Below, piece by piece: positions 41,915-62,001 of a stretch of DNA of 64,000 nucleotides (position 1 is the first letter of the stretch; the number at the start of each line of letters is the position of its first letter). The position numbers and the translations under genes are program-made. The DNA comes from Favolaschia claudopus (Eukaryota > Basidiomycota > Agaricomycetes > Agaricales > Mycenaceae): assembly GCA_037176885.1 (NCBI GenBank), contig JAWWNJ010000048.1:1513733-1577732 (forward strand), in the 5' to 3' direction. The notes under the pieces were generated by a model. The model did no database searches, was not told the origin of the DNA, and saw nothing but the letters and a program-made list of their open reading frames with translations.

Positions 41915-41979
41915 GGTGTCCGAAACGATTGAGCCAGTACCGAGGATTCTGAAGAAAGGGGGACCCGCTGGGGGGGGAA

Positions 41980-42660
41980 TTTGAACTCACGGCCGCGAAC
42001 TGTCACAGTGACGGTGTGACGGTGTGGTACCCCTATGATATCGCTATTAAATTGTGGACTGGTATCTCTTCGTTCTTCTATAGGTAACGTGTGTAGGTGG
42101 ATCGGTGTTACGTTTTGCGCGTGGTCGCAAGTTCGATCCTCGCCCTTGTGTTTTTATTTCGTCACCAAACAACTGTAGCATATATTTAATTTGAGCCGCG
42201 CGGCGAGCGCTAGCTCCACGCAGTGGGCCTCCGCGGCGAGCGGAAAGCGCCGCGCAGCGGTCGGGGTCTGGGGTGGAAAACCCCAGCCGTCCGGGCCGGC
42301 GCCCGCAACATAGTACCACTCACAAAACAAAGGAAAAAAGTCTATTCAACACGAAAATACAGCGGCAAGTACTCCGAAATTTTGGAGCTGCTTCCGGTCG
42401 GTCAACAAGAAAATTGTCATACACGCCGCGCGGCAGCTCCACGCAGTGGTGCGCCGCAAATGTCGGCGGGGGATGACAATTTTTGCGTTGACCGACCGGA
42501 AGCAGTGGAAAAATTGAGGGAAAACAGCGCGCTGGTATGCAAGATAACAGATGTGTGCCAGTGGAAGGGCAATTCCAGCAAAAAAAGGCCGGCCTGGGGT
42601 AAGCAGAGGGAAATTGAGTTCGCGAATGTGACGGCGTGACAGTCACAGTTCGCGGCGTGG
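41980..42660. mobile_element. Small composite insert with inverted ends, tRNA-like head and hairpin
   Basis: CCGCGAACTGT near 41992 is answered by ACAGTTCGCGG at about 42644-42654. Inside are a tRNA-like promoter stretch (42085-42140) and a 32-bp inverted repeat with ~50-bp loop (42389-42420 and 42473-42504, about 29 of 32 matching). Composition differs from the flanks. No clear target duplication was found, so limits are approximate. It lies between B pol and the first antisense gene. Confidence 0.45.
42085..42140 (+). ncRNA. tRNA-like internal promoter, possible SINE head
   Basis: GGTCGCAAGTTCGATCC (ending 42139) matches a tRNA variable-loop and T-arm with a B box; GTGTAGGTGGATCGG at 42091-42105 is a weak A-box match at plausible spacing. 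The acceptor stem does not pair, so not a functional tRNA. A tRNA-derived SINE is the likely source. Confidence 0.4.
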
Positions 42661-42697
42661 GTTTGGTCTTCCGCTGGGGGAGCTCTTTAGGAACGAG

Positions 42698-43940
42698 TCA
42701 GGGAACATGAGCATCGACGCCGGCAGAGGAGGACTCGGGGAAGTCGCGAAGGCGAGCCGAGATCTTCTCTCCTTCGTCGAGGAGCTGCTCGCGCCGGGCC
42801 AGAGAGCTACGAAGGTTCTCGTGGATGACCGCCAGCTCGACCATGATGAAATACATCCGCTTGCGCAAGGCAAGGTGGTTGCTCATGAACTCGGTACCCA
42901 TCTCAACGACGCTAGCGGCCTCGTCGACAACAGCACCTGAAGCGGGTGCCGAAGCGTAAAACTCAGCCGTTGCTGTAATAACATTCAGCGGGAAACCACT
43001 AACAATGGACGGGAAACTCACCGTTGGTGAGGAAGGAGTCCTCGTGGAACGGGTTGTTGTCGATGCGAGCGCGCTTGTTGCCTTTGCCCTTCTTAGCGGG
43101 GGCCGGGCTATGCTGAAAGATTGAAATGAATGACAGAAGCTAAAGCAGAAATAACGTGCGACTTACAGCGCGCGCACCCTTCTTGCCCGCCAGGGGCTGA
43201 TTTAGCCTTGGGACCGGTAGGGGGAGCCTTGGGAGCGGGGACATGCTCATCGTCAACGAGCATCTGGGTGAACAAACACCCAACGGCGATGATAGAAGTG
43301 TCAATCGTCAGCTCTACACAGGCCAGCTGTTAAACGAAAGAACGAACCTCGTCAGCACCGATGGTGGTGAGAGCGGGCGATGGAGCACGAACGGTGCCTT
43401 CGTCCTCGTCCTCAGACTCGGGTTCACCCTGAGACCGCCCGCGAGTACTCTTCTAGCGGGGGGATGGTTGTGAGTCAATGGTGAGCACGGCAATAAAAGT
43501 TAGTGAAACCGACCCGGGTCCCCTTGGAAGAAGAAACGGTGGAGACGGGCGGGATCGCCTTCTTGGAACGGTCTTCGTGAATGGCCTTGGTGATCCGCCG
43601 CAGGGCATCGTACCCAGCGGGGAAGGTCACGTCCCGTTTACCATCCGGGTCGTACAAGGAGTGGTAATATTCACGCGAGGTGAAGATTGCCTCACGAAGA
43701 ACCGCGCTCTTGTCTTCCAAAATGAAAGGCATGAGCGGGGGAAGGCGCGCCTATGAACGAAAGAATAATGTTAACAAAACGAGACTGGTCAATGTAGCCG
43801 GCGGCTCTTACGAGAATCTCGGCGACGTCCTTGAGCTGGTTTTTACGAGACTCGGGCGGCGAATACTTGACGAGGTTGGCGGCAACGTCCATAGCCTTGA
43901 GGAAATCGGCTTTGACGGTGTTGTAATCGTTTTGAGACAT
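42698..43940 (-). CDS. Antisense gene epsilon of element B, spliced, unknown function
   Basis: ATG at 43940 (MSQNDYNTVKADFLKA). The first exon is helical; after a GTAAGA..ATAG intron, exon 2 reads PFILEDKSAVLREAIF and continues to about 43510. Later exons carry an acidic patch (SEDEDEG), KAPPTGPKAK, a Lys-rich patch (KKGKGNKRARID) and a helical C-terminus (NHLALRKRMYFIMVELAVIHENLRS, in part) ending TGA 42698. A TATA-like TATAAG lies about 70 bases upstream. It is the last of five minus-strand genes. Position in the block is like gene A2, but similarity is too weak to call homology by eye. Confidence 0.5.
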
Positions 43941-44360
43941 TTTGGAGGAAGCAGAGTAAAGACAGTAGACGAGGCTGGGGGGTATACCCGTCCGCCCGCT
44001 GCTTCTTATACTCGAGCGGCAGTAATTAACGCCGTAAGGATATTTTGGACAAAATTTGGTCAACGGCCGAACTTGGATTACCATTTATGGTAGATGCACG
44101 CGCCGGTGGCGCAGAAAATTATTTCAAACGCACCCGATCGTTCCGTGGCACGAAAATTTGCTGCCGGGGAACCTGAATTTCCTCTGATCGATCAACTGGG
44201 GACAGTTGAGATTTCTGAAAGGGGGAGAGGTGGGTCACCTAGCACGTCATTTGAGGGCAGCGGGCACATCTTTACCAAGAAATAAATGTTTCCAAGGCCT
44301 CACATGGGGCGGGAGTGTGTGTTATCGGAACGAACTATCCGAAAGTACATGTGCCTGTAT
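43941..44360. other. Spacer between antisense genes delta and epsilon
   Basis: No gene recognised. Holds the likely epsilon promoter (TATAAG on the minus strand at 44005-44010) and an AGCGGG motif at 44258. Confidence 0.4.
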
Positions 44361-44990
44361 CTACACTGCCCGCATCCTAGCCGGAAGATCCAGGAAAAGA
44401 TTATTGGCGAGAACGTCTAACCGCTCGCGGATAACAGCAACATACGCAGCCGGGAGATTAGCCGTTTTGGCCTCCTGAAGAAGATGGAAAACCAAGCGAG
44501 CCTCGAAGTAAAAGGACAGCCGTTGGGCTGCCTCTGCGACGTTCCGCCCGACGATTACAGAATGGTATTGTTGCCAGAATGGGAACTGCGCCAGGGTCCC
44601 CTCATGAAGGACGTCCCAAGCAGCTAGCCGTTCCTTCGTAGCCGCTAAGAAGCGAGCGGGGAATCAGTTGTGGCGCAACAGATAAGAAAGAAGTCGTCAC
44701 TTACGATCGGGACCCTCTTTGAAACGGTGCCGGCGGGCAGCAATTTCATCGGCCAGCTCAGCGGTCTGGGTGTACGAGCAGTTGTGCTTCAGCAAGTAAC
44801 AGCGGGTGCACGGCGCTCCCCACTCAGTAAACTCGCAATGAGAACGGGCGTTGAGGCACGCAGAGCATACCCGGCCAGGCTGCCGAATGATGAGGAATTA
44901 CCCGAGGCAAAATGTTCAGGAACGTACATAGTACTCCCTGAGCGGGCCGACGGGGTCATTCGGGAAGAGTGGATGTTCCAGCAAAGACAT
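44361..44990 (-). CDS. Antisense gene delta of element B: six-cysteine cluster protein
   Basis: ATG at 44990 (MSLLEHPLFPNDPVG). After an intron with acceptor TCGGCAG, exon 2 holds CSAC, then SHCEF, WGAPCTRC and HNCSY: spacing C-x2-C-x6-C-x8-C-x2-C-x6-C (about 44875-44777), which fits the fungal Zn(II)2Cys6 pattern. After a second intron the helical C-terminus reads QFPFWQQYHSVIVGRN and VIRERLDVLANN, ending TAG 44361. About 170 residues. Paralogue of beta and gamma next door, and close in the WGAPC block to gene A3 of element A. DNA or RNA binding is inferred from the cluster alone. Confidence 0.6.
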
Positions 44991-45273
44991 GAGTAGACGA
45001 CTGAAGCAAATGGGACCTTCCCGCCAGCTTAAATATCTCTCTGAGACCTGGCGGGAGCCCCAAAAACAGAGAGATCGACAGCGGGACTCATTGCACCCGA
45101 TGCTCCCGGAAGATCTGCAATACATGTGGAATATCCAACGAGGTGCTGAGCTCCCGCTGGGCAAAAACACGAGGAAGCTTTGGTTTCTAAGAAGCCTTCC
45201 TAATCGGGCAGCTTGAAACAGAGTTTTAAAGATGCAAGTTCGTTTGACAGTGGGAATATATTTCCTACTACGC

Positions 45274-46050
45274 TTACGGCCCGATGAACATAACGGGCGG
45301 GAGCCTTGCGCCGGACTGGAGGGCTACAGCGTCTAACCTATCCCGGAGGAGATCTACAATTTCCTTTCGTACGCCCGCCCCCCTTCGCGTCAAACCACAG
45401 TCCGTACAAGAAGCGTAGCTGGCCAAACCCAAGGGTGCCGAGCATGGACCGGGCGGCGAGGATGGTGCAAGTACGCACGTCAATGTACCTCTTCTCGTCG
45501 AGTCGGGCACCGGCAGCCCGGGCGTACCAGTCAAACTGAGCGATCCGTCCGGCGGAGGGAGCTAAAATTCACTAAGACCCCCGCTGAGCGGTATAAAGAT
45601 AGAAAGCAGACTTACCTGGCCGAGAGGCTAGGAGAGTGTCGCGACGACGGCTGTTCTCGGCCTGCCAGACGGACTTCTTGGTGTAGCAGCACAAGGCGGC
45701 GCGGCCTATGAACATGCAGCTGAGGCAGGCTTCACCCCACTGAATCCAGATGCAATGGCGGTAGTTCTTGAGGCAGCACTGGCATTCGTACTCCGGCTAA
45801 GAAGAGGCACCCGTCAGCGGGAGAGCACCAGGAAAGAACGAAAGACCCACAAACTGAGCCTGAAGTACGAGCTGGTACTCTGAGGGACCGGTGAAGCTCC
45901 TAAAGCGTTCTGAGTAAAAAGTCGCTGCCAAAGAAAAAGGCGGGCATCGCTCGAAGGACTCACTGGGCACCGGCCGCTATAAGTAAAATCTATAGCCGAC
46001 GGGTGAGTACCACCGGCTGCCGGACCAAAAGCTCAGGTGGAATCAGACAT
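45274..46050 (-). CDS. Antisense gene gamma of element B: six-cysteine cluster, damaged
   Basis: Exons: RPVPSESFERCPPFSL and FRSFTGPSEYQLVLQ (45990-45857); after an intron, EYECQCC, RHCIWIQWGEACLSC, AALCC (45785-45668), giving C-x2-C-x6-C-x8-C-x2-C-x8-C; then AQFDWYARAAGARLDEKRY and LRFLYGLWFDAKG. A G-run near 45385 carries a one-base shift before the ending LLRDRLDAVALQS and TAA at 45274. The start is uncertain: the ATG at 46050 meets TGA after five codons unless an indel is assumed. Same architecture as beta and delta. Confidence 0.5.
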
Positions 46051-46119
46051 CACGATAACGGCTTGCGACCGGGCAAAGAGATTTATTTGACCCTAACGGG
46101 GAAAGGCTACTAGCCTGGG

Positions 46120-46862
46120 TTACCGCTCGAAGGTCTGGCGGCGCGTGCCTTGGGCCAAGGGCACGACGGTCGGAACGTTAGAGTCCCGTCGCCTGATATC
46201 ATGGAGCGAGATAGCTGCGTCGACATCGCACTGGGCATGGATCGAGCGATCCTGGGTACGCCACTCGCGTAAAACTCGAGACAGGATGTTGTAGAAATAC
46301 AGCCGCCGGCTGGAGTGAGCGGCGTGATTTAGGTCGTGAGCAATGTCCCAGTCCCGAAGGTCGCCAGCAAATTCCTCCCGCCGACGCAAGAAGTCAGCGG
46401 GCTCACCGTCCACCGAGCCGATAAACATATCGGGGCTTAAGCCGCCGAGGCGCAGGTGGTACCAGAGTTCGAGGAATGCAAGGTCGTACAAAGTGCCGCC
46501 TGAATAGAATAAGAAAGATGAGAATTCGAAGAGCGGCAGGACTTACCGCTGCGATAGATAAAAAGTGTCGGAAAGGTTGAAGACGGATAGGTATATTTGA
46601 ACCAATCCACCCCGGCGAACAGGCATTTGGGGACCTTCGCCTCCCGGCACCGAGTGCACTTTGAGCCCCAGTGGAGAAATTCACAGTCTTCGCCGGCGTC
46701 ACTACAAGGCGTGCAGACGAGATTTGGCTAGCGGCTGGTCGGACTTGGCGCAGAAATGTGTTGAGGACAGCCTACCACAGTATAGATCTTGCGCACAAAG
46801 TCTTGACTGACCACCGGGAAGAAATGGTAGTCGATTAAGACTTCACCTATGGGCTGAGGCAT
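46120..46862 (-). CDS. Antisense gene beta of element B: six-cysteine cluster protein
   Basis: ATG at 46862 (MPQPIGEVLIDYHFFP), a short first exon, then an intron GTAGGC..GCTAG. Exon 2 has CTPC, EDCEF, WGSKCTRC, PKCLF (about 46720-46616): C-x2-C-x6-C-x8-C-x2-C-x7-C. A second intron follows near 46545. The last exon is helical (LYDLAFLELWYHLRLGG, RRLYFYNILSRVLREW) and ends TAA 46120. About 210 residues, apparently intact, the best preserved of the three paralogues. Likely nuclear if it binds DNA like Zn(II)2Cys6 proteins, but no localisation signal was identified. Confidence 0.6.
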
Positions 46863-47641
46863 GACGATTGAAGGAAAAAGATGGTTTGATTGGCTATCTA
46901 CCCCTATCGACTATACGAGTACGGTAGCGGGCAGCTCGGGCCGCCGGGCCAGTCCTACTCTACGTCATCACTCTTACGAGGCCAGCGGGAGAAATGAGGA
47001 ACTAGCCACCCGGTGGAGTCCGAGGGCAGCCGCTGACAGCTAGAGAGAAGCCGCGGGCAATCCCCGCTATCTGATGACCCCGGTGATAAGCACCGTTGCC
47101 GCTCGGCATGTTGAAAAACTCGAAAGGTTCAATGTTCAGCTCGCTCTCTAAGTCGTGACCAGACGACGGGCGCAGCACTTAGCCAGAACTTCTCGCTTCA
47201 GACTCTTACAAATCACTTAGAGGCTCTAGCCGGGGCTCTGACTTAGGAACTTAAAAGAACTTAGAGGTTTCACGCAAGAAAAGAGCAGCGGTATTCAAAA
47301 AGCTTTTATTCATCGGCTCTTTGGCCGGCACATGCTGCTATACTACTTGGGGCATTTGATTTTTATTTGGTGGGTCGTGGCGGGTGGAATTCCACCAGGC
47401 CAGACCCTTCGCAACCAGCGGGATTATGGGACCCGTACCCGTAGCTTTTGATGATATTGGGGGCCGCTCGGCCCCCGCGATTATTGAATACAGAAAATAT
47501 TTCTGAAGAAAGAAGTTAGTTGAAGACAAGGGGAGCGGGAAGAACAGGCAAGTTGCTTACTTGCCGCCCCGCCCACCCACGAGGAACTCTAGAGGGAAGG
47601 GTCAGAGAAAGTAAAGGGATATATAAGTTGGACTCACCGGC
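46863..47641. other. Spacer between antisense genes alpha and beta
   Basis: No gene recognised. AGCGGG/CCCGCT motifs recur (46926, 46983, 47065, 47418, 47533). Probably the beta promoter and alpha 3' flank. Confidence 0.4.
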
Positions 47642-50600
47642 TCAGGCATAGTCGTCGAGGTCGATGACGGAGGCCTCGACGGTGTCGTCGACTTCTCCAA
47701 CTGCGTCAGCCTCGGCGGCGTCCCCTTCCTCGACAGACATGGCATTCGCGTCCTCGTCGTCGAGTTGCTCGGCAACGCTGCCGGCGACCTCGTCCTCGCT
47801 GTCCTCTTCCTCAGACTCGTCCCCGCTAGAAACCTCCTCGAAAGCGAAGGCTTCAGCCAAGAAGTCCCGCTCGAGTGCTAAGTGACCCACCTCAGTCACC
47901 GGCGCGACGACTTCCGCGTCACTCACGAACTCCTCGTCCTCAGGCTCGTCGGCACGACCTTTGCCTTTCGAGCGGGATCGTGGCTCTGGAGTCGGCGGGT
48001 GGGATCCGAGATCCATGGCTGGGGCGGGCAAGATTGACTTAGCAAGCATTTATGATAGAAGAAATTGAAAAGGGGACTTACCGTCAAGCGGGCCGTCGTC
48101 AGCCGATTCCTCCTCAGTAGGAGAAGGCGGCGGGCGGAACTCGTCGTTGGGCGCGTCGGTCTCGTCGTCGTGAACCACCGGGTCAGACTTGACCTTGGAC
48201 TTCCTGGCGGCAGGAGCTTTACGGCGGCGGGGAGGTTTGACTTCCTCATCAGGTGCCTCCATGAATGTTCCCCGGGCGTACAACTGACGGAAGAAACCCG
48301 GCACGTTCTGGTGCTTGGCGCTGTAAGGCAGCGGATGCCCATCGAAGTCCAAGGGATCGAGTTCGAGCGGGCCGTCGCCGTCCTTGTGGGCGCGAGCTCT
48401 AACTCTCGAGCCATCGGGGCCGGTCGACAAGACGGGGATCTTCTCGCCCTCGTCGTCCTCCTTGAAGATGACCTCGTAGCAGTCGTCCGGCTGTGAAGGA
48501 AATAAGAAGATAGATAGGATTTAGAAAGGGGGAGGGCTTACCTCGACCTGTACGAACTCAGGCGCCCGCTTGTCTTTCTCGCCCGATGGAATCAAGAAGA
48601 AGCCAAGAGGCGCGGACCGGTCGTTGGCGTCATAAGCCTTATAGAAGTTATAGGCTGTGCCAAAGATCGGGACGTCCGCCTCGTCGAGGAGCGCCATCGG
48701 GAAGAATTGCCAGGCGCGGATTTCGTTGATATCCGTGCCGGCGTGCATCCCCTGGGTCATCGCAATACGAAGCATGAGCTCCATGTGCTCCTCCCGCTCC
48801 TCGACCGTTTTGCCGTCGAAGCGGGCGACGAAATCTTCACGTTTGACCTGCCGGCGGGTGGTGAGAATGGCGTGCAGCAATTTGAACATTTTGCGGCGAA
48901 GGTGGGCATAGGCGCTTTCCAGCGAGTTTTGAATCGAGAAAATGGTTGCGCTGGCCTGATTCACGTCCTCGTTGAGGTCGTACCACTCTGCAAAGTAACG
49001 GTCAGCGGGAGAAAGATAGAGAAATATTTAATTCTTACCCGGGCCGGTCATGGAGGTCCATTCCTTGAGCTCGGTGCCCATGAGGCTCAGTTCCTCGCCG
49101 GTAGCCAAGAAAGTGCAGTCTTTCTTGGACTTCGAACTGGCGCAGGCTGAGCACTCAGCGGGGAATGCGGAGACATCGCACTCCGACCCGTTGTGCATAC
49201 AACGGATGCACCGGGGGCCGTACTAAGGAGAAAACGAGAATTAGAAGAAAACCCAGTCAGCCGTTTGAGGCACTTACCTGAGCGAGGAACAACTCGAGGG
49301 TTGTCACGAAATTGGCAGAGCTGAGGGCGAACATTCCCCGCTCCGGGTCGATCGGGAGCTCTTTGCGCATGGCGGCGTTCGGGTAGGCCGAAAGGAATTT
49401 CTTGAGGAGCTCTTTGTTAGGGATAACAAAGCCCTCTCCTTTGGCCTTCTTAGCGGTCGGCGGGTTCTGAAGAAAATTCGGTCAGGTTCACGCCGGGCGA
49501 AATAAAGTTGAAGGAAAAGTTGACCCAAGACTCACCGGGTTGATACCGAGGTTGCGGATAATCATGCGGTAGGCCATGTCGGCCACGACGTTGGTCATCG
49601 ACGGCACCTCGTCAATCAACACATCCTCTTGAGGGTGGCGGGGGGTTGGCTTTGATGTGGAGGCCTTTCTCGTCGGCGGGGGTTTGGTGATGACTATGAA
49701 GGAAGAATTCAGCGGGCGTTTGTACTTGAAAATTAAAAGTTCACTTACGAACAATAGGCTTCTTGGAAGCCTTGACCTCGGATTCGGAGACGTACTCGAG
49801 CGGGGGAGTCTAGGAAAAATTTATAGTCAACTCTATGTCCGCCTTACACTTGGGGCAACAACGAGTAACTACTACCTCCTGACGGGCGGGCGCCTTGCCC
49901 TTGCCTTTTTCCTTGTCCTCCTTGACCTTCTTCGCCGGCGAAGTTTCGGCGGTGGCGGAGGCTTTGCGTTTCGAGCCGCTGGCGGCAGCCAGGGGCGAGT
50001 CAGCGGGCACCGTGATCTTGCGCTTCCTCACAGTGACCCGGCCGGGGTCTTCGGTGGCGGAGGTGTCTGTCTGAAACGAAGAGTCAGCCGCTGGAGTTGA
50101 GTTAGAAAGAAACACTCACTGTCTTCTTGAACTTCGGGAGGGGCTTTCTCTCCCGGGGAGTATCTTCGTCCTGCAAAGACAAAAAGAGGATAAGTCAAGA
50201 AAGAACCAAGAAAGGATAGAATCTCTTACCTTGGGCGCGGGGGCCGGCTTGACTGACTGCTCAGAGTCGGCAGCAGGCTTGCCGCCGCTCTTGGTAGATT
50301 TGGAAGAGCCGCCGGCGGCCTTGGCGCGAGCCTTGGGCTTGCCGTCGTCGCCCTTCGACGATAACTGCCTCGCTGACGAGGAAGAGGCCTAGCGGGTGTC
50401 AGTTACGACCTTCAATAAGGGGACTGAACTCACCGCGGTGGCCTTGGCCGGCCGAAAATCCTCAGGCGTTAGCCGAGGCGGGAGGTCGGGAACTTGGAAA
50501 CTCGAAATACTGGCCGTCGGCTCCTTAGGGACTGTGAACTGGAAGAAGTTGGGAAAGTTAGCCTGAGAGGTTGATAGAATACGGAAAAGGGCTTACGCTG

Positions 50601-51167
50601 AGGTCCTCCATGGCCTTCTTGCCGATGGCCAGCTTCCAAAGCTCCGGGCGATGGCGCTGCGGATCGATTCTCTTCAGTTGTCGCCCGAGGTAATAGCTGA
50701 GCGCGATGGCCATCGGGGGGACTTTCTCTTCGCTGCCTTTGGCAAAGTTGAGTCCCGCCCGGTGAATGCCCTAGCCGTTAAATCAGTAAAGGAACGATAC
50801 AGAAAGAATGAAGTAGAAACTTACCAGTTCCTCCTGGAGGTCTTCGATGATCTCGGTGACCTCAGCGGTGGGCGTCTCGTCCAAGGCCCCGGGGGTGATG
50901 AGCTTCTTGGCCTTTTCGAACTTGTCAGAGCGGCCGCGCCAGCTAGACCAAAAGTCGATGTGGTCGTTAAGGTTGATGCGAGAAGTCGACTTGGCGGGGG
51001 ACTGGGAAGACGGAGCCGCCGACGGTGCAGCAGCCGGAGTCTGTTTTGGCGCAGGTGTTGAAACAGAAGGCGAAGTTGCCCGGGTGGGAACTCTAGAAGG
51101 ACGGCGAACGGAGCGAGAAGCTGAAGGCCGGCGGGCGCTGGCGGGGTGTTTCTTTATCGGAAGCCAT
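47642..51167 (-). CDS. Antisense gene alpha of element B: large multi-exon protein with cysteine cluster
   Basis: ATG at 51167 (MASDKETP), with a one-base shift in the first exon near 51140. About a dozen exons with GT-AG introns. In order: Ser/Pro/Arg-rich start; DHIDFWSSWRGRSDKFEKA (50960); MAIALSYYLGRQLKRID (50715); Lys/Ser-rich disordered exons (50430-49860); a block VVADMAYRMIIRNLGINP (49590); then a cluster CIRC, SECDV, ECSAC, KDCTF (about 49215-49115): C-x2-C-x6-C-x8-C-x2-C-x8-C; a helical exon with MFKLLHAILTTRRQVKRED (48890); a basic exon with PPRRRKAPAARKSK (48225); and a very acidic C-terminus ending TGA 47642. A TATAAA lies 172 bases upstream. Position matches gene A1 in element A. 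Confidence 0.55.
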
Positions 51168-51858
51168 TTCGCGGATGAGACGTCGCGAGATGAGCGGGCA
51201 GGAAGAAGTGGTCCCCAGTGCAAGGCACTCAAGATCGTCGCCGGGTGGAAAGAAGGAAAGAAAGGGCCAGAGGGAGCGAGTCAAGGGGGTGCCCAAGTTG
51301 GGGAATCGGTGGGGAACCTACCAAAATCCTCTCGACTCTTTATACCTCTCGAGGTCGGAGTTTGAATGTTTGATGGGATTCTCTGGAAAATTTTCATGAG
51401 AAACATTTGAATGGAGAAGCGGGGGGTCGCTGCGGCTTCTTTGATCCAAAACATTCCAGATTGCGACCACATACAACGGCCTTAGAGAGCGCAGGGTTAG
51501 AGTTCGACCCTAGTGCTTCTCAAATTGATGTACTTCCGAAAATGGCAATGGTGACGCCTCATAATGAAAATGACGGCATCGCCGGCCGCGGCGAGAAGTT
51601 AAGGCGAGAAGCTGTCAACGGAAGTAGAGTGGGAATCTAAAATTAGGTCGCCACGAGTCTTTCGTTAAGGTTTTCTCTCATGAAATACCAAAGGGGACGA
51701 GCGGGAACCGGGCCTCACTGGCGGCCCATTCGTTATCTAAGATTATTCCAAGGCGAAGTTTTGTCTTGAAGTCCCCTTCCCCGGGAAGATGGATAAGATC
51801 CCTAGCGGGCGATCACAAGTCGTCAACTCGGGAGAGTTGAAATCTAGAAAGGGGGAGA
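51168..51858. other. Upstream region of alpha and 3' untranslated part of element B
   Basis: No gene. A minus-strand TATAAA at 51339-51344 could drive the antisense block. The end, AAAGGGGGAGA at 51848-51858, is the polypurine tract that primes plus-strand DNA, directly before the LTR. Confidence 0.6.
51339..51344 (-). promoter_or_regulatory. Putative TATA box of antisense gene alpha
   Basis: TATAAA on the minus strand, 172 bases before the alpha ATG. Gene A1 of element A has TATATAT about 195 bases before its start, a similar layout. Confidence 0.45.
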
Positions 51859-53669
51859 TGATAGGGCCGCCCAGCGGCTAGGCATGAAATGCCCGGAATT
51901 TATCGATTTTCGGGACCTATCAGCGGGAGAAGTGAGGCTAGGATACTAGAAGATATGCCCGTCCTCGCGGGCAGTATCTTATTGCTGTGGATAGCCGACA
52001 AGCTGGTGGGACACCAACGGGTAGCAGCGGCTTAGCGACGTTTCCCTAAACATGGGTGCGAGACTCTGCCGCTGACTATTTCTAAACTGCCGGGCCAAGA
52101 GGCTTAGTGGGAAACTACTATCTCAAGGTGCTGGAGGCGACTAAGAGGAACTACCAACCTCCCTGAGGTTAGGCGCTCACCCGCCGACCAACATGAAGAA
52201 GATCTAGCGGGGGACCATACTGAGTTCAACTTCGAACTCAGGACGGCCACCACTCTACCGACGAACAGGATCACCGGCATGCTCTAAACGAGCACGCCGG
52301 CTGATTACGGACAGCCGGGACTTAACCGACTGCCAGCGGGAGCACCTCGGAGCCAGCGGCTATCCAGCCAACAGCTCTGTCAGATTGATGAGAAGGACAT
52401 GGCGAGTTGCCGGGGGTATTTCCCGCTGATTGCGGACAACCCGAACGGCGAGTGGCGAGCCGCTAACGCGACTCGGCTCTCCCTATTTTCCCTGGGACTT
52501 AGACTGTTCTGAAGATAGAAGACGAGACGAACTTGACCGCTGTCGAGCCGTTGACTAACTACTCAGCGGGAAGCCCTTTCGACTTCAACTCGACCAGCGG
52601 CAAGACCATATTATGAAGGAAGAATTTCGTGTCCCCTCCCGGGGACATGGCAACCAGCACGCCATTGCACTGCAATAAGGCGCAATACCCACCCGCCGCA
52701 TGGACTTTCTCCGGGAGGCAGTCTTTTCACTCACGACTCGCAATCCTGAACATACCATTGGTTCCCAGCGGGCGCGGCATCACTCTTGGACGCTCTCTCA
52801 TCATGATTTTATTTGGTTGTTTCTGCTCCCGCTGCATGTATTTAATCTCCCGGTGTACTTTTTGTTACTCAGTCAATTACCTACCCGTAGACAAGGGCAG
52901 TTTGTAGCGGACTCTAGAATTTGAATTGAACTTTGAAAGAGACTAGACTTGATATCTGAGAGAGACTCGAGTGATACGGAAAGACTTGTGGCATACCGAG
53001 CCGCCAGAACTTTGAGAGCCCCGCCAGCCTTTGAGCCCGAGCCCTCCTGAAATACGAAGCCCCGTTTCTCGCCGTTCCGCGGTATAGCCAAGACCCCCAT
53101 TCGTGCCTGATTCCGCGCCGTCGACGCCCCGTGTGCCAGCCGTTCCGCGGTATAACCAAGACCCCCGTTCGAGCTCGCCGCCGCGTAGTGGTGTAACTGC
53201 CCGGGTCACTGTTAGTGTCCGCGCCATCGACATAAGAGCCCCGCTTCTCGCCAGAGCCGCGCCGGTCGTATAAGAACCCCCGTCCCGCTGAGCCGCGCCT
53301 TCTGCCCGCCGGTTGTCATCCAGAAAGCTTCTTGCCGGTTGACGATCCACTACCGGGCGACGCTTTTCTATTGGCACGGAGACCCTCCCGCTAGACTCAG
53401 AATTTCTCATTTCGAAGTCTCAGAAAGAGTGACTCTTCGCTTCTCCCGCTGCGAATCGTTTTGCCCGCTACGTTCTCGCTAGACAATCTAGTAGTTCGTC
53501 CCGCTCAAACGTAGCGACCTTGATCGATTGAAGCTTGCACAAGTATTCTGAGGGACGATACGTGCTCCCGCCACCCCGAACACACACACACACACACGTC
53601 GTATTGGATTAGATTTTGTGATTTTATATTTCGGTATATTTCACGCCTACACCTACACGCACCGTTTCA
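51859..53669 (+). repeat. 3' LTR of element B
   Basis: 1811 bp, TG to CA, preceded by a polypurine tract and followed by the duplicated CCGT at 53670-53673. Nearly identical to 7095-8906. After it the pol frame of element A resumes. Confidence 0.93.
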
Positions 53670-53972
53670 CCGTTAATTAAGGAATGGTTAGCGGACCCTT
53701 TAATAAGGCCCGCGGGGATGAATGACGACCAGGAATATCGAGCTTTTGTCCGCTCTGCCTCACATTTCTTTTTGAAAGGGGGGAGGATGTATAAAAAAGC
53801 GATTGGAATGGCTCATCAATTAGTAGTTGACAAGGAACACCGTATGTTTATGATGAAGGCTGCTCATGATAGCCTGGGTCATCGCGGAAGTTATGCCACT
53901 ACGGAGTTAATTTCATTGAGGTTCTGGTGGCCAGGATTGGAGTGTGACGTTTATTGGTATGTGGCGACTTGC
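53670..53972 (+). CDS. pol: Pol of element A, part 2: integrase zinc-binding domain
   Basis: In phase with 4469-7094. Encodes EWLADPLIRPAGMNDDQEY then the HHCC domain: His in KEHRMFMM and in LGHRGSY, FWWPGLECDV, and the first Cys of the C-x2-C pair near 53970. It is cut inside that pair by the MITE-like insert at 53973, and the second Cys follows in phase at 54738. Matches the B integrase (40560-40820) closely. Confidence 0.88.
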
Positions 53973-54725
53973 TATGGCTGTAATAGTGTAACATTATTAT
54001 TTGTTGCACTGCTACAGGGACTTTGACATACAGTTACACTGCCAATGGAGATTTTTCACAATTTGTGCACAGGACGGGGAAAAAAATACACAATCTGTAC
54101 TTTGGAGGGGGAAAATACACTGCTACACACAGTTCGAAAAAAAAAATACGCAGCTCTTTGGTATATACCACGATCTAGGCACATCAAAGGTCATCAGTCG
54201 GCATCTGATCTGAATCAGGGAGAGCCCTGTTTTGCGCCTGTATAATACTGTATATCAACCCCATTGCGTTCATGGTTTCGGAATTTAACCTTTAAAAATG
54301 TGTTTCGAGTGGCTGGAGCTGGCTGACTTCCTTCAGTGGGACAATCGATTATGTCATTTGAACTGCTATGTTTCTCGAAAGCCTCGTTTGGTCCATATTT
54401 CCGGAACAATGAACCCTACATGAAGGCAGAGAAGATCATATATACCGTCTACCTTTGGCCTTGACCACTGTTGAGCAAGGCAAGAGGCATTTTTCAGTCT
54501 CAGATGAACTCGGAAGGCTAGCTAGCCGATGAATATGTGCTTGATCCTTTGTTGAGATCAATTGATGGTCAGTTCGGAGTTGGCTGCCGATGTCTCATCA
54601 TATTCTGAACCTGTGCATTTTTTTCCCTGAGGACGTGAACTTGTGTATATTTTGGAGGGTGTGCATTTTTTTGAGTATTCAAGCTGTGTTTATTCGCTGA
54701 ATAATGTTACAGTATTACCCCCATA
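53973..54725. mobile_element. MITE-like insert F with inverted ends, 753 bp
   Basis: Ends TATGGCTGTAATAGTGTAAC and, reversed, TATGGGGGTAATACTGTAAC (3 mismatches in 20, similarity continuing through ATTATT). The duplication ACTTGC is at 53967-53972 and 54726-54731. Insert plus duplication is 759 bp, and the integrase frame is kept across. Subterminal parts also pair loosely (A-run rich TGCACA/TGTGCA blocks). No coding capacity; the superfamily is unclear because six-base duplications are uncommon. Confidence 0.82.
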
Positions 54726-54731
54726 ACTTGC

Positions 54732-55966
54732 CTACCATGCCAAAATAGGCAGCACACCTTGATCAAAGTCCCGCCTGTGGTAACGGATACACCAAGTCTT
54801 TTCCAAGTAATCCATACCGATGTGATGGTGATGGGGCAAGTCTCAAATAAATGCGGACTTGTGGTTGATGCAAGGGACTCGTTGAGTTCCTGGTTGGAGG
54901 GAAGACCATTAGTAAGGGATTCCGCTCAGGCAATTGGAATGTTCCTGTTTGAAGATATTATCTGCCGTTGGGGTTGCCCAAAGCGGATTGTAACGGACAA
55001 CACGGGGCAGTTCAAGAAAGCCGTGGAGTGGTTGAGGCAGAAATATGGAATAGCCAATGTTCAAATTTCGCCTTATAATTCGCAAGCTAATGGCAAAATT
55101 GAGTCTGGGCACTTTCAAATGAGACAAGCATTGTTCAAGGCGACTGGAGGGAACCCCGCCAAATGGTTCTGGTTCTTCCATGTGATGCTTTGGTCCGACA
55201 GAGTCACAGTGAGAAAGGGTCTGGGGTGTTCACCATATTTTGTGGTAACAGGAGCGCATCCAATATTACCGTTGGATGTTGAGGAAGCAACGTGGTTAGT
55301 GGAGTTGCCAGACCGAGGTGTTGACCACCGCGGAGCTCATTGGGTACCGTGCGCAAGCTCTAGCCAAGCATGTCTCCCATGTTGAATATATGAGAGAGCG
55401 TGTTGACCATGCAAAACGATTGGCAGTTCAGAAATTTGAACGGAACCATAAGCATGCGATCAAAGGCTATGACTTTAAGCCGGGAGATTTAGTTCTGGTG
55501 CGACACACGGAGGTAGAAAAATCATTGAACTCGAAAATGGAAAAGAAAGGAAGGTACCTCGGACCTATGGTTGTGATAGACGCACCAAGGAGGAGCGTAT
55601 ATCCTTGCGGAGATGGATGGGTCTTTATTCCAAGACAGAATCGCTGCAGGAAGGGTAGTCCCTTACTTAGCGAGGGAACGAATCCAAATTCCGAAGAACA
55701 TTCAAAAGTTTATTGATATCTCTACGGAGGCGTTGGAAAAACTAGTAAACGACGAGCCCGCGGAGGGTACAGAAGAGAAGAATAAAAGGTCTAAGAAGTT
55801 AAATGATATTGCCTTCGACAAAGTCAACATCAGGGTATCGCCCCAAGACTTCGAGGATACAGAATCTTCACAATCTGAATCTGAAAGCGAGGAGGAAGAG
55901 TCGTTTGGACTAGATGATGAACAGGAACGAGTGGGCCCGCGAAGGTCCAGGAGAAATAGAAAGTGA
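54732..55966 (+). CDS. pol: Pol of element A, part 3: integrase core and C-terminus
   Basis: Resumes with CLPC-QNRQHTLIKVPP. Catalytic core: Asp in VIHTDVMVMG (about 54823), Asp in IVTDNTGQF (about 54997), Glu in NGKIESGH (about 55103). A one-base gain near 55317 (PDRG to VLTTAELIGY) and a loss near 55589 break the frame twice. The GGSY-type domain continues to MDGSLFQDRI (55613), then an acidic Ser/Glu tail and a basic end RRSRRNRK, with TGA at 55964-55966. No chromodomain. The stop abuts the stop of the opposite-strand gene A3. Confidence 0.85.
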
Positions 55967-56811
55967 TTAAAGGTTGTGGCCATATTTGCCCCTACCGAAC
56001 AAATAATCATGAGTATATTTCTTGGAAAATATGGAACGAAGACGTACTTGTCGGGAGATTCCACGGACTTGGGATGGATCCCCGGAGGAATCAGTTCAGT
56101 GATGCGAGCTAAGACGAGCTGCTTAGCAGAGTCGTCGTACATGTTGATGTCGAGTTCTTTGCGGAGGTAGGCGAGTTCGTGAACATCTGTGATCTGAGAA
56201 AGAGCTTGAACGAAGCCTTCCTTACGATACCGGATGCCCCGCTGAAGGAAGTAGAAAGCGAGGTCGAACTCTTCTGCGAGCTCACCAAAGTGGAACTTGT
56301 CATTCCCAAACATGATAACTGGGGGGGAAATTCAGCAATGAATAAAACCCCGCGGAGATTTTTGGAAACGTACCAGGGCCACCGCGCTCGTGGAAAACGG
56401 TGAACATATTGTTCTGCTCAGTAAAAGGGCAAGTGCGAAACTTGCGGAGGCAAGTATCGCAAGGAGCGCCCCAAGCCTGAGGATTACAAGTCCCAGAACC
56501 GTGCTCCGCTTCGCAGCAAGAACAAGCAGCAGTAGGCTGGAAGAATTCCCCTGAGTAAGGAGGCGAGATTTGGAGAAGAACAGAAGCGCACCTTGTTATC
56601 CGCAAGGAACGCAAGAGTATAGCGGAGACGTTCACGGACCTCCAGAAGTGGTGGATGCATCGTAATTGTAGCCAAAAACGCTACGAAGAGCGCCTATCTC
56701 ATCCATGGGGAAGAAAGGAGCGTCCCACTCAGGATGAGGCGAAGGAGTGGAGTAGTAGTAGTCGCCGTAGTCAGGTGGTAAATTCTCCTCGTCGTATGGG
56801 TCGCAGCACAT
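55967..56811 (-). CDS. Antisense gene A3 of element A: six-cysteine cluster protein
   Basis: ATG at 56811 (MCCDPYDEENLPPDYG), a Tyr/Pro-rich first exon; RERLRYTLAFLADNK before an intron; then CSCC, GTCNP, WGAPCDTC, RTCPF (about 56525-56428): C-x2-C-x8-C-x8-C-x2-C-x6-C. After another intron comes a helical domain (FHFGELAEEFDLAFYFLQ, ELAYLRKELDINMYDD); a last intron GTACGT..CCAAG gives KYTHDYLFGRGKYGHNL and TAA at 55967. The WGAPC-x2-C block ties it to delta of element B. It ends exactly where the sense pol ends on the other strand. Confidence 0.62.
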
Positions 56812-57470
56812 AAAAGAGCGGAAGGGGTATTTGGGATTTGGAAGCTCCGCGCAGCTGTCTTTAAGTCAGGCAGGGCTGCTGAGACATTACCCAGCACTTT
56901 TGGACACTCAGGAGTGTAGTTGCGATCGGTTGACTGAGCAATCACAGCTTAAATGGTTCAACGCAGTGCCATCGGAGCGTTTTGAATGGTATCCAGCGGA
57001 AAGAAACCCAATTTGTAGAGAAATTGAGGCCCGCGGACCCCTCACTACGAATGACAGGCGTTGCGGGGAAGGAAACAGATAAGCCTGGAACGGAGTGTCG
57101 GTTGAAGTCGATGATATGGCCATCATTAATTCAGAATTGGAGTATGTAGGGAATCAACCAGCGTAAGCAATTGAAGGCTAAAGACGCTAAGGCTCCCGCG
57201 GCTCTGTTGACAAAGAAATGAGAGGTTGTTCAAAGTCAGAGACGTAGACTTGGCGCCCCGCGGAGCGGAGTTTCACTCTCAGAATTGAAGAAAGCAAGGG
57301 AAATCACACAGGAATGGCTTGACAAAACAATTGTATTGCAAGCACTACTGAAATACGATACGCCCGGGCTGATAGAGACTGTGGTTGCTGGTTTGAGCAG
57401 CGGAAGTGTGTCTGTTGAAGACACGAATATAAAAACGGAAACTTGTAGCTAAATAATCCTAGCAAGGGAT
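56812..57470. other. Spacer between antisense genes A2 and A3
   Basis: No gene recognised. CCGCGG motifs at about 57031, 57196 and 57257. Confidence 0.4.
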
Positions 57471-59173
57471 TTAAGGCTGCGAGGGCGCGTTAAGCTGAGA
57501 CCAGTGCGCAAAGAAGAATTTGCGTACACCATGCGCGCTGTGCGGACGACGGATAGGCCTGTCATCAGGATACTTCTGGTAGAAGTCCAGTGTGAGCTTC
57601 TCGAGATGGTCGTCGTACTTATTGTATTCCGACAACCAGAAACGAAACTTGAAGGCCGCGGAGCGCATGCTGTGGCGAAGAAACTCCGACTGAGTGCGAA
57701 AGTCGTGGGGATCCATTTCTTCAGCATGGACATTGGCGTTATGAACCGCTTTGTCCATGATCGCAGGGTCTGTGATGACAATGAGATCATGATGAAGATC
57801 TATTGAATAATGAGGTGAATGACGGAGTAAGGGACGTTGAAACGTACTCGGGAAAGTGGGTTCGTGGAGCATATCGACTGCCGCGTCTGCCAGACGAGTA
57901 CGCTTGCGACCACGAGCGGCATCATCAGGATCAGCGATCTCCGCGGGAGGGCTGGGGACGAAATCAGTGAAAGGGAGTCGTATAACGAAAAATTGGACTC
58001 GCCTGAAGGCCCGCGGGAGGTTCCACCTAGTACGACTTGCGTATTAGAGGGATTCAACCGTGAGAAGTTGATTACGTACCATTGAGTCGTCCTGGTCGAG
58101 AAAGGCTTGTTCCTCTTGAGCGGCCTGAGCTCTGAGCTTGCGCTGAGGAAAAGAAATTTTCAGTGAGTAGGGTGCATGGAGAGGGAGCGTACAACTGTGC
58201 GACAAACGTTTTGGAACATCTCCTCTGGAATCGGATCGTCAACGATTTCAACTGACGCATCGCGTTTCTTGTGCGCCTTACCCTCGGAGATTTTGGAGTC
58301 CTTGGGTTTGACGGGGCAGGCGTCAATACCGTGTTGAGTCGATGAGCAAGACCCACACACGTTGATCTGCTCGAGAAATTAGATGGACGGACAAGAAAAG
58401 AAGGAATAAAAGCGGAGCGCACCGTTCCGCGGGAGTTATTCTTCTTGTTGTTCTTGCCACCGTTGGTCTTGTTGAACGAAAGACCTCCGGGGACCGAGCC
58501 AGAACCTGCACGGTAATTGGCCCCGTACGCGGCAAGCAAGTAGGGAGTAATATTCATACCTTCCTCCTTGTCAATGTCCATCTGTAGACGATTAAAGTGA
58601 ATCGTAATGTGGAGAACGCCTGGAGATACCTGGTCAGCGACAGACGCCTCATCCGCGGAGTCGTCACCGTCGGTATCCTCGGCAGCCTCCTTGGACTTGT
58701 GCTGAAAGGGATAAGTCAGTAGAGAAGCTAAGAAAGAGGGATAAAATAACGAGGGCACACCTTGGCCTTTTCGTCCTTCTTCTTTTTTCTTCTTAGCATT
58801 GTGGTAGCGGTTGATCAACTGGTTGAGCGTAACGTTGTGGCTGCTAGGAATGCGGAAGCCGTGCTCGTTGACAGCGAGTTGAAGCTGGTCAGGGAGTCCT
58901 AGAATGATCTGGGTGACGGTAGCATTCTGGGGGGTGCTGGAGCGCGGAGGCCATTGGGAGAAATCCGGTCTGGAAGAAACCCCGCGGGTCAGCATAGTAG
59001 TGAGTAGCGGAGTGTAGCAGACGTACGACGCGGTCGAGCACCGTGTCGAGCGCTCTGTTGCAGATCGCATCCGAGAATTTCGCCTTTCGGAGACCACAAT
59101 ATTCAGTGTGAGCTGCTTGAATGCCTTGGATTGCTGTCTGGAGTGCAGGCGGAGGGTGGCGGTCAGGCGCCAT
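57471..59173 (-). CDS. Antisense gene A2 of element A: CCHC zinc-knuckle protein
   Basis: ATG at 59173 (MAPDRHPPPALQTAIQG). Exons include RVVRLL, then DFSQWPPRSSTPQNATVTQ and VNEHGFRIPSSHNVTLNQ, a Lys/Glu stretch, MDIDKEEGMNITPYLLAAYG (about 58580-58520) and a Gly/Asn/Lys patch. A CCHC knuckle CGSCSSTQHGIDAC (C-x2-C-x4-H-x4-C) is at 58360-58315. After further introns come RGRKRTRLADAAVDMLHEP and a helical end (FRTQSEFLRHSMRSAAFKF, EYNKYDDHLEKLTLDFYQK), stop TAA 57471. A knuckle of this type is usual in Gag or RNA-binding proteins; its presence in an antisense gene is odd. Exon limits are approximate. Confidence 0.55.
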
Positions 59174-60212
59174 TGCATGGAAGTGGTCAGAACGAGACGA
59201 AGTTTAGCGGAGCGGACCTCTAGCTTTTATGTGCAAAAGGTCCGGGGAGTTACGAGATCTTGGTTACAGAGGCGCAAATCGCTGAAGCATGCCAAGACGC
59301 ATGGCAACTCAATTCTTGGCTGATATAACTGCATGCGAGGACGCATGTTTTATTTAGTCTGGGGGAGGAGAGAGAGCCAAGACACGGAATGGGCGGTGTG
59401 CCGTCCGCGCGTCATGCGTCGGTTACCATATCTAGGCTTGGAGAAATTTGTTTCACCAAGAATAGGCGATTGAGGCCGATGTTTTCAAAATCGGAAGTCA
59501 TGGAATCCTGATTGGGAGGATATTGATGATCGGTTTCTACACGCAGTGACTTGCGACACTGATTGATGGAGGGCCGCGGAGACGCGTCAGACGGCACGTC
59601 CCCGGAGTTCACCAGAAAAATAAAGTAGCAAGAGCTAGCAGGAAATTGAGGAGTCAATGAGACTTCATCACTTGAATAAATGTTGAAGTTGAAACTCCGC
59701 GGAGCAGAATCGTGCAAAGAGTTGAGAAGTGAAGTATTCTGCTATGAAACCAGTAATTTGAATTGAGGATCGACATATGATGACTCAATTTGGATTATAA
59801 GAGCAGTTGAGGCTTGGTGAAATTCGCACTTGGTTGGAAAAGTTGAGTGGCGGAAATCACCGTGATCGGATCATACTTGATGGATCTGTTGATCGGTCGG
59901 TAGGAAAGAGTTACCGGAGTCCGAGAGACCCAGGCGCTAAAACAGGCGCTAACGTTGGCGCGAAAGTGGGCGCTAAGGCATCTCTCATAAGGAAAAAGGT
60001 TCACACGGTTGAATCAAGTACAACAATTTGGCGCCTTGGGCGCTAATGCATTTATGGGTCGTTCACATGTTTACAGGAGATTCTACCTAAGATGGGTAAA
60101 CTATGTAAACGACCAGGGACTACTATATATACAATATTTTGGCTTGTTTCAACGCTGAAGCCTACAGCACGACGAGCAGATCATTGTATGTAAATAAAGA
60201 AAGTCCAATAGT
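59174..60212. other. Spacer between antisense genes A1 and A2, with GGCGCTAA repeats
   Basis: No gene recognised. Near 59932-60050 GGCGCTAA and close variants recur about five times at short spacing. Confidence 0.5.
59932..60050. repeat. Short GGCGCTAA-type repeats
   Basis: GGCGCTAA or GGCGC.AA near 59933, 59945, 59957, 59969 and 60038. Four of them are spaced 12 bases apart, so a minisatellite seed. About 1 kb upstream of the A2 start is absent; it lies in the A1 3' flank. Confidence 0.6.
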
Positions 60213-62001
60213 TCACGACGAATCAGAGTCCGACTCTTGATGGCGCGTGGAACGGCGCAGCTGCATCCCACCGGTGCTGGAGCCTTCTTCGAATTCCGGG
60301 TGCTTTCCCTTGTCAGATGCGATGGCCACTCCGGCTGGACCAAACGGAGGTTTGTCCGACGGAGCAGACGCAAAGATCGCGGCAGTATCTTGCGACAAGG
60401 AGGCGCTGGAAGGACCAACCTTTGAAAAATCGACCGACGACGACAGCTGAAAGTCGGGATTTGCCAAAGGCCGAGGAAGGGTGCCCGGAGCCAGGGAAGA
60501 GTCAACACGGCCAAACGATGGCGCAGGTACGATACGATTGGAGAGCAAGGGAGCATATGTCCCACGAGTACCAGGCGGCGCGTCATCAGGCGGAGGAACC
60601 ACAGCTGAAGTAGGATGGTCCGCTATAGCGTCGTCAATAGCAGACTGCTCCAAAACGTTCTTGAAGTACTTGTCCGCGATGTCGCGCATGCGATCGCCGT
60701 CCGAGGAGTCTTCAAAAACGCTGTTGAAAGCGGGCAGCGACCATGGCGGAGTCCGAGTTGCGAATAGTCACAGCGACGTCTTGGGCAGCCAAACGTTGCG
60801 CACTAAGAGAACGGGCGTGGAGGAGCGCGGTGTACTCAGCATCCACGGTCGTCTGGTATAGGCGCTGCAAAAAGGAAGCCAAAGAATGCGGAGCAACGTT
60901 GTGATAGGGGACGAATATGCTCGAAGAACTTCATCAGTTCGGCGGGCGACCAGTTTGAACGAGCACTTCTCCTTGCGAGTCGCACAGCGAATGCAAGAAG
61001 AAGACCGAGTAGAGCGGTCGATGCCGGGACAAGTAATGAAGTTGAAAGCACACTCGGTGCAAGGAAGCGCCTCGGGATTATACAGTGGCGGGTTAAGGGC
61101 GTCTGTGACGTAATGATGCGGGATGCGCATCAGCGTGGGAGTCGGCGCGCCCGCCTCGGGAATGGAAAAACAAAGCATCGGTGATTTCACCGCGGGACGA
61201 CACCTCGATGATTCGCGGGTCCGGTGCAGCAGGATCGGCACGCGGAGGGGAATCCACCTCAACGCGACGACGTTTCTGGGGCACCGTCGGCTCGACGACG
61301 GAAACTGACGCGCCTGGGTCAGCTTCGACATCGGAGTCCGCGACGAATTTAGCACGAGCGGGCGCCTTGAGAATTTGGGGAAGGCGAAAGTCCGGCGAAA
61401 GCGATGTCCGCGCCTTTGTCGATATTGTACTTCTTACGGAAGGCAAGGGCGGGGCGGCCGGCACGGTAAGCGTCGAGGAGGAGCTCAGGAGCTTCCATTT
61501 TGGAGGAGACGAGCCCTTCGTGAGGCACTTGAGGAGGCGAGCGGTTGTCCAAAGAAAGAGTTCGACCCTCGTCGGGGATTTCTTCGCGTTCACGGTAACC
61601 TTGCTGTAGAAATACAACACGGTTAGTCAAAATATGGAAAAGAGAACAGAAAGAAACATACCAAAGATGGGAGCAAACTTTTTGGCTCGCTTCAACTGAA
61701 TTTCGAGAGAGGGCTCCGGGTCCAGGTACTCGAGTTCGAGGAAAGCACGAGAGCGTTTGTTGTCAAATGGTGCCCAGAAACGGAGCACGGGGATCGGAGG
61801 CAGCTAACGATGAAGGCATAGCAGCCAAGCGCAGACCAGCCGGTGACAGAAGAGGATTCATGCGAGTATCAGCCGGAACTGGAGCAGGCGGGCAGCGCTG
61901 GCGGCGGCGCTGGTGGCGGCGCTTGGGGTGCGGGAGACGAATATGGCGGGGGAGGCCCGGTGCGAAGGCGAGTATTTTTCTTCGGGGGACGATGGCGGCA
62001 T
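60213..62001 (-). CDS. Antisense gene A1 of element A: six-cysteine cluster protein
   Basis: Probable ATG at 62001 (MPPSSPEEKYSPS), first exon frame uncertain. Then LPPIPVLRFWAPFDNKRSR (from about 61805), LEIQLKRAKKFAPIFG, an intron, QGYREREEIPDEGRTLSLD and YRAGRPALAFRKKYNIDKG. Indels near 61400 and 61160 are needed. The cluster CTEC, ITCPG, SSCIRC, EKCSF (about 61062-60970) is C-x2-C-x6-C-x11-C-x2-C-x6-C, within the Zn(II)2Cys6 spacing rule. A helical part follows (QTTVDAEYTALLHARSLSA), and a Pro/Ser-rich C-terminus ends RSTRHQESDSDSS at TGA 60213. It lies nearest the 3' LTR, like alpha in element B. Confidence 0.55.

Follow-up and report, generated by a model that had tools for sequence, protein, structure and literature searches.

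Why should two families of fungal Ty3/Gypsy retrotransposons carry, downstream of pol and on the opposite strand, a block of spliced genes encoding a cysteine cluster, and what could the encoded proteins do for the element? The question is raised by a stretch of 64,000 nucleotides (nt), the window, from Favolaschia claudopus (assembly GCA_037176885.1, contig JAWWNJ010000048.1, positions 1,513,733-1,577,732 of the forward strand), which is a nest of long terminal repeat (LTR) retrotransposons located at the end of contig C48. Here a Ty3/Gypsy element, A (16.7 kb in the count of its word), is interrupted within pol by a second one, B (19.4 kb in the count of its word), belonging to another family. 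The reading favoured here, to which a probability of roughly 55% is assigned, is that A and B represent a lineage of large fungal Ty3/Gypsy elements with an antisense block of Zn2Cys6-like genes, whose proteins would bind a short word typical of the family, activating the element or releasing it from silencing.

Minus-strand spliced genes were found between pol and the polypurine tract in both elements (55967-62843 in A, 41915-51858 in B). Gene finder scores on the minus strand of the two blocks were 174 and 72, against 14 and 10 on the plus strand; shuffled blocks (12 each) scored at most 9.7 and 4.9, and LTR controls below 1. These strand-specific scores confirm the antisense, intron-rich gene blocks proposed between pol and the 3' LTR in the preliminary description, and rule out chance as the source of the cysteine patterns. 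Nearly all introns examined (25/26) are 45-70 nt long; since the gene finder rewards splice consensus, their appearance is not independent evidence.

The shared six-cysteine cluster also held up: a module in which all six cysteines are invariant is carried by six of the eight block genes (B1, B2, B2b, B3, A3 and A1). The first five contain it as one paralogous exon, of 184, 181, 181, 175 and 177 nt respectively, ending in phase 1; at the 5' side the four B genes have phase 0, four residues ahead of the first cysteine, and A3 has phase 1. The A1 model is without the corresponding intron. Similarity among B2, B2b, B3 and A3 extends outside the cysteines.

Zn2Cys6 domains (PF00172) have six cysteines with a usual spacing, and their basic, DNA-reading residues are located in the first loop. 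The spacing fits this pattern in the six modules, A3 having eight residues in the first loop. AlphaFold models were built for the B3 and A1 modules, from six sequences each, with a mean predicted local distance difference test score (pLDDT) of 73 and 60. When compared with the PDB by Foldseek, all matches (22/22 and 21/21, respectively) were Zn2Cys6 proteins, individually weak as they were (best E 0.19 and 0.20); 1cld and CBF3 are among the matches that we take to be of this class. Similarly, a module profile run against PDB sequences retrieved seven listed matches, five of them Zn2Cys6 factors (best E 0.05). The module also matched Pfam or Gal4 in a half-swapped arrangement, which a collinear match of B3 contradicts; no PF04082 domain was found in the block products scanned. 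Other observations count against class membership, and to that extent against the favoured reading. The best PF00172 score, 17.3 bits, misses the cut-off of 21; only three of the six modules match PF00172 at E up to 10; the net charge is -3 to +2 in the first loop and +1 to +3 in the second, so that the usual basic first loop is missing; and, the models being built from six sequences, the cysteine pattern may have steered them. With a score below the Pfam cut-off and its basic residues in the second loop, the module is labelled Zn2Cys6-like and kept out of PF00172. Its predicted fold appears to resemble that of the class, so that the likeness suggested in the preliminary description stands at the level of modelled fold and not at that of family assignment.

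The position of the block was checked throughout the host genome (264.6 Mb in 460 contigs, the one genome searched). A search with the B integrase, of which the best 150 of 1232 candidates were considered, gave 98 places of B type (at least 89% identity); at 88 of these 98 a B3 module lies antisense, 2-7 kb downstream (median offset 3445). Near-full B3 modules number 129, 88 paired with a listed integrase and 41 unpaired, several of the latter near contig ends. The A integrase matched 36 places at 98-100% among the matches listed, and many at 86-92%, which define a sister family, A'. Modules detected by pattern in stretches fetched from the genome (numbered L009 and up) were antisense to pol in 35 of 35 cases. 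They occur in copies of B (L009-L012, L023, L030-L032; none intact in L029), A (L033, L034) and A' (L013-L016), in a 68% relative (L017-L020), in L021, and in L027, reached via RVT_1. No module was found by pattern in L022, L024, L025, L026 and L028 (10 kb each) or in L038-L041 (5 kb each). On four contigs (C19, C66, C121, C420) the B3 modules all lie 14403 from the contig start, with B1 modules at 93 and 18776; these contig ends look like copies of one another.

Ratios of non-synonymous to synonymous substitution (dN/dS) between the antisense genes of the window and those of other copies range from 0.04 to 0.44 over 26 gene-by-copy comparisons, which cover the antisense genes of copies that are not independent. 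The values are 0.04-0.14 for B2 (4 copies), 0.11-0.32 for B3 (5 copies, few changes), 0.17-0.44 for B4 (5 copies) and 0.13-0.23 for B1 (4 copies, belonging to its own class or a near one); against L033, A2 gives 0.21 and A3 0.07, and comparisons with A' give 0.25-0.27 on 41-65 alignable codons. Such low values indicate that the antisense proteins are under purifying selection, which in the copies compared agrees with the conservation claimed in the preliminary description.

The first antisense gene behaves differently from the rest of the block. From pol to B2, copies of B match the window at 95.6-98.3% identity. For the B1 stretch an alignment at 96-97% is obtained in L010 and L029-L031 alone and one at 87-89% in L032, while in L009, L012 and L023 this stretch is unalignable or 65-69% identical. 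The replaced stretch of L012 and L023 corresponds to about 47586-51307, and the LTR beyond it is again 95.5-95.8% identical; in L009 the left LTR part has diverged too (77%). A genome search with the B1 module (best 150 of 157 candidates, near-full matches counted by hand) gave listed near-full matches at 92-100% (20), 84-86% (13), 60-62% (65) and 36-38% (32) identity, hence about four classes, unlike the B3 module, which is 93-100% identical in nearly all near-full places. The A1 module likewise differs strongly between the window and L033/L034, where a single residue of the A3 module is changed. Judged from these alignments, B1 varies within one family by cassette-like replacement. This hypervariable gene and the family words described below are additions to the preliminary description.

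Each element is rich in short words of its own. Compared with a second-order Markov expectation, A contains CCGCGG 45 times (expected 5.1; two of the 45 sites are second copies in the LTR overlap) and CCGCGGA 50 times (3.6), and B contains CAGCGG 72 times (14.8), AGCGGG 82 times (16.3) and CAGCGGG 38 times (3.9). Cross-counts are at chance (CCGCGGA in B, 4 vs 4.7; CAGCGGG in A, 1 vs 1.9), and the word of the other element is therefore not enriched, rather than absent. With dinucleotide shuffling, the top 6-mer z-score is about 20 for A, 19 for B and 6.4 for an 18.6-kb control. The sequence TCCGCGGA occurs 16 times in the window, 14 times in A and twice in an A-like solo LTR. The words are found in LTRs, introns, spacers and coding DNA; a 729-bp insert in A has no family word. 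Another word, GTTGAA, was noticed 41 times in A (13.7 expected) and 7 times in the A-like LTR at 36183-38241 (1.7 expected).

Words were also counted per 10 kb in the fetched stretches. The count of CAGCGGG is 18-26 for B, against 0-4 in other stretches; that of CCGCGGA is 14-30 for A and A', 21 for L021, 14 for L018 and 0-6 in the rest. The words of the other module-bearing families are ATCGCGA, CCGCGGAA or GCCGGAG: ATCGCGA reaches 12-15 in L017-L020 (0-3 elsewhere), CGCGGAA 27 in L021, 10-13 in A' and 7 in L018 (0-3 elsewhere), GCCGGAG 27 in L027 (0-4 elsewhere). The z-scores of the ATCGCGA family, 5.1-6.6, fall within the module-less range; the word recurs in four of four copies, which share descent. 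Where no module was found, the top words are weaker (z 3.5-6.6) or are accounted for by tandem arrays (L028, L040) or a repeated block (L038). No strong dispersed word was found in the 10 kb of L024, L025, L026 and L028, the word of L028 being a 126-bp tandem array, and arrays of this sort do not explain the words of A, B, L017, L021 and L027. Arrays with 126-bp spacing (L028, 4759-6271; L040, 2616-3498) were seen downstream of the reverse transcriptase (RT) genes of two other elements. A solo LTR of a further family, C, contains AACTCCG 11 times, against 0.1 after shuffling.

Codon bias was rejected as the cause, because the excess outlasts synonymous shuffles of gag-pol pieces and antisense genes. 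TCCGCGG occurs 20 times in the gag-pol pieces of A (6276 bp; 1.5 expected), and CAGCGG and CAGCGGG 15 and 7 times in those of B (3933 bp; 4.5 and 1.3), values reached in 0/400 shuffles each; the same holds for AGCGGG in B1-B4 without B2b (21 vs 7.0, 0/400) and for CCGCGG in A2 (5 vs 0.9, 0/400). In the B antisense genes CAGCGG and CAGCGGG gave a weaker result (9/400 and 4/400). The words also persist where the surrounding DNA has changed. The A-like solo LTR is 60% identical to the A LTR over 1791 aligned bases, in an alignment that is partly uncertain; it has 7 CCGCGG sites, and the A LTR 9, with one position in common. The stretch that replaces B1 in L012 and L023 contains CAGCGG 16 times (2.6 expected), and the one in L009 AGCGGG 12 times (2.5) and GGCGGG 17 times (3.6). 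Within pol, two of six A sites align to a B word one base away. Retention of the word amid changing surroundings favours the view that the word itself is under selection.

Reported targets of Zn2Cys6 domains are CGG triplets (PMC12997857). These elements encode Zn2Cys6-like proteins and are full of words that mostly contain CGG, and the two facts would be most simply linked if the words were read by the proteins. The favoured reading can be put as a sequence of steps. Spliced genes of the block, built around a duplicated exon for a Zn2Cys6-like and putatively DNA-binding module, would yield proteins that enter the nucleus and bind the short word accumulated over the whole family element, CCGCGGA in A and CAGCGGG in B. 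Binding would activate the LTR, keep silencing off the element, or both, to the benefit of the element and its close kin. The word remains constant while B1/A1 changes drastically, so that the small conserved genes B2, B2b, B3 and A3 are the likelier readers; hypervariable B1/A1 proteins may counter host factors or tune specificity. Taken together, the data suggest that the elements make proteins which recognise and help their own DNA. A more detailed version, in which the first of the antisense readers is cassette-swapped in an arms race with the host and readers co-diverge with words matching over the whole element, in the service of self-activation or de-silencing, is put forward tentatively, at somewhat less than an even chance.

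Besides the shortcomings of the module, several observations on the words weigh against the favoured reading. The pattern search detected no module in L022, a stretch whose integrase is 77% identical to that of B and in which the word CGTCAC is scattered (z 6.6); the 5 kb examined of L039 likewise lack one and contain CACCACC 9 times. The ATCGCGA family has the module and a word without CGG. CCGCGGA is common to A, A' and L021, hence words are not strictly private, and L018 contains CCGCGGA and ATCGCGA together (14 each per 10 kb). In windows of 1600 bases the mean top-word z is 4.9 in A, 5.0 in B and 4.4 in controls, so that the signal needs whole elements. CAGCGG is also raised in the nested 23.3 kb (29 vs 14.7 expected), and the Markov z of the family C LTR, 6.3, does not exceed the control maximum of 6.6. 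The sites of four words are spaced only a little more evenly than chance predicts (P 0.03, 0.03, 0.18 and 0.27), and the preference of the B word for noncoding over coding DNA is weak (P 0.03 for CAGCGGG, 0.08 for CAGCGG). CpG in A words is not clearly better kept in the A-like LTR (6/17 vs 19/66). Finally, at 18 of 23 genic sites the coding strand shows the B word as CCCGCTG (P 0.01), and at 18 of 22 one-sided A sites the plus strand is the one with the A (P 0.004), a strand bias relative to genes that a purely double-stranded role does not predict. Together with the word that lacks CGG in one family, this bias is what the favoured reading chiefly leaves unexplained. The two-word stretch L018 may itself be a nested insertion or a mixed element.

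Some of these points would be expected if host-encoded factors, such as an activator, an insulator, or a replication or chromatin protein, read the words and the block proteins acted otherwise. The module below the Pfam cut-off and without a basic first loop, the word lacking CGG, and the sharing of CCGCGGA by three families all fit this explanation, which is nevertheless unlikely, given that different module-bearing families bear different words and that the module-less L024, L025, L026 and L028 have no strong dispersed word. It is distinctly improbable, in our view, that the words have nothing to do with the block and arise at the level of mutation, codons or RNA (packaging, splicing). The orientation bias, the vicinity of the B word to branch-point-like sequence in some introns, and the location at CpG of four of the nine LTR-pair substitutions (by eye) point that way, and against it stand the excess remaining after synonymous shuffles, the presence of words in LTRs, in that of B with no strand bias (4 to 4), their persistence in replaced B1 DNA, and CpG observed/expected ratios of 1.00 and 1.04.

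The block proteins might serve another step, such as cDNA chaperoning or integration targeting, with the words as packaging or nucleoprotein sites on the cDNA. Words spanning the whole element, coding DNA included, are what coating predicts, and the target-site duplications (TSDs) of two insertions start with CCG (n=2); nothing connects the block with particles, and spliced, antisense genes suggest nuclear expression from DNA copies, which leaves this explanation a small probability. Least probable of all is that antisense RNA is the agent, or that the block derives from a host cluster, captured and now decaying as a passenger. The antisense layout and the broken A1 of the window copy agree with it, and a regulatory RNA is discussed for plant cases (PMC7264820), but the dN/dS values largely refute it, and rule out a decaying passenger; against it stand also the presence of the block at 88 of the 98 listed B places and the homology of A3 with B3, whose families are 64-65% identical in RT and integrase.

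Known systems offer partial parallels. Antisense additional open reading frames occur in plant Ty3/Gypsy elements (Retand, Grande, RIRE2), where a regulatory role is suspected (PMC7264820, PMC11963269). A and B have the Retand-type placement, between pol and the 3' LTR; they differ in that three to five spliced genes are built around a Zn2Cys6-like exon, and in their family words and the hypervariability of the first gene. Retand clusters are stated to encode TRP28 in 97% of cases (PMC11963269); TRP28 (PF04195) gave no match in the block products scanned, A1 and A3 being scanned only in part. VANDAL transposons of Arabidopsis encode VANC proteins paired with short motifs that differ between families (PMC5735166, PMC10398659), VANC21 and VANC6 acting in anti-silencing via their own motifs (PMC5735166). 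A and B similarly have a short, family-typical motif differing between families, yet CCGCGGA is common to three. By analogy, their proteins might have a VANC-like anti-silencing action; VANC targets are tandem repeats in noncoding DNA of DNA transposons, unlike the words of A and B, dispersed also over coding DNA in an LTR element, which is a further point against. Zn2Cys6 factors (Gal4, Leu3, Ppr1, Hap1; PF00172) share with the module six cysteines, a compatible spacing, the predicted fold, and CGG in most words, and differ by the Pfam cut-off, by basic residues in the second loop of the module, by the lack of PF04082 in the products scanned and by the retrotransposon origin of the module. 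TET/JBP DNA transposons of fungi are also thought to carry an anti-silencing gene, which encodes an enzyme; no retrotransposon with TET/JBP was found, according to that report (PMC12730594). Literature searches found no block or words of this kind in fungal Gypsy elements, and no relative emerged from scans of viral contigs and prokaryote genomes, collections not expected to contain fungal elements.

Features of the window are listed below. Both elements encode, on the plus strand, gag, aspartic protease, RT, ribonuclease H (RNase H) and integrase, in the Ty3/Gypsy order from protease to integrase. LTRs with TG..CA ends, a target duplication, a primer-binding site (PBS) and a polypurine tract were found in B, which is whole, and in A as far as it lies inside the window. 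The two share an identical PBS and similar LTR ends, and are 64% identical in RT and 65% in integrase; RVT_1 and rve matches in their pol are below Pfam cut-offs, and no chromodomain was matched in the pol C-terminal pieces scanned, whose frames are broken. The LTRs of B differ by 7 substitutions and 3 gaps over 1813 columns, and the LTR parts of A by 2 differences in 525 shared bases (1-525 vs 63476-64000); all nine substitutions of the two pairs are transitions. A1 and the pol of B are broken in the window copies despite these young LTRs. A short LTR element at 9324-13926, with two identical 930-bp LTRs, 2.7 kb of internal sequence and a TSD AGGCC (by eye), appears to be a non-autonomous and very recent insertion. 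An imperfect palindrome of about 118 nt (42388-42505) separates the end of B pol from the last antisense gene. B and the A-like solo LTR have TSDs CCGT and CCGG, both starting with CCG.

Features of the nested retrotransposons in the 64,000-nt window
Feature	Position	Strand	Remarks
A 5' LTR, right part	1..1207	+	left end outside window; LTR end TTTCA; PBS TGGAGCCCACCGCGAGGGG from 1210
A gag, protease, RT, RNase H	1288..7094	+	split by B; PF13975/PF13650, PF17917; Ty3 RT/RNase H in PDB, E 3e-22
A remaining pol with integrase	53674..55966	+	PF17921; frame change near C terminus
Insert with terminal inverted repeats inside A pol	about 53980-54715		
A3	55967..57123	-	spliced; module exon 56550-56374; 3' end uncertain
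A2	57471..59178	-	spliced, about 460 amino acids (aa); no Pfam family above cut-off
A1	60213..62001	-	module gene; frame broken at several places in window copy
A 3' LTR	62844..64000	+	cut by contig end; polypurine tract precedes
A word CCGCGGA	1..7094, continues 53674-64000		50 in 16.7 kb
B 5' LTR	7095..8906	+	TSD CCGT at 7091-7094
Solo LTR of family C	19409..20979		TGTCACG..CGTGACA; TSD GAGAC; rich in AACTCCG
B gag, protease, pol	32905..41914	+	many frame changes; A-like solo LTR within
A-like solo LTR, reversed, inside B pol	36183-38241		TSD CCGG
B4	42698..43940	-	305 aa, six exons, without module
B3	44361..44990	-	173 aa, three exons; module exon 44879-44705
B2b	45373..45962	-	module exon 45796-45616; only provisional start
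B2	46120..46862	-	215 aa, three exons; module exon 46727-46547
B1	47642..51167	-	first antisense gene, at least 817 aa; module exon 49222-49039; N terminus provisional
B 3' LTR	51859..53669	+	polypurine tract precedes; TSD CCGT at 53670-53673
B word CAGCGGG	main stretch 38242..53669		38 in 19.4 kb of B

If the favoured reading is true, sequence-specific self-help of transposons would have evolved in fungal LTR retrotransposons too, using a small fold that is easy to assay and words of 6-8 bases, and sequence alone could suffice to pair readers with words. Antisense cysteine-cluster genes that await assignment in mushroom genomes, of which there may be many, could become recognisable as retrotransposon genes. 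The discrete, swapped gene classes within one family would then offer a direct view of the arms race between transposon and host.

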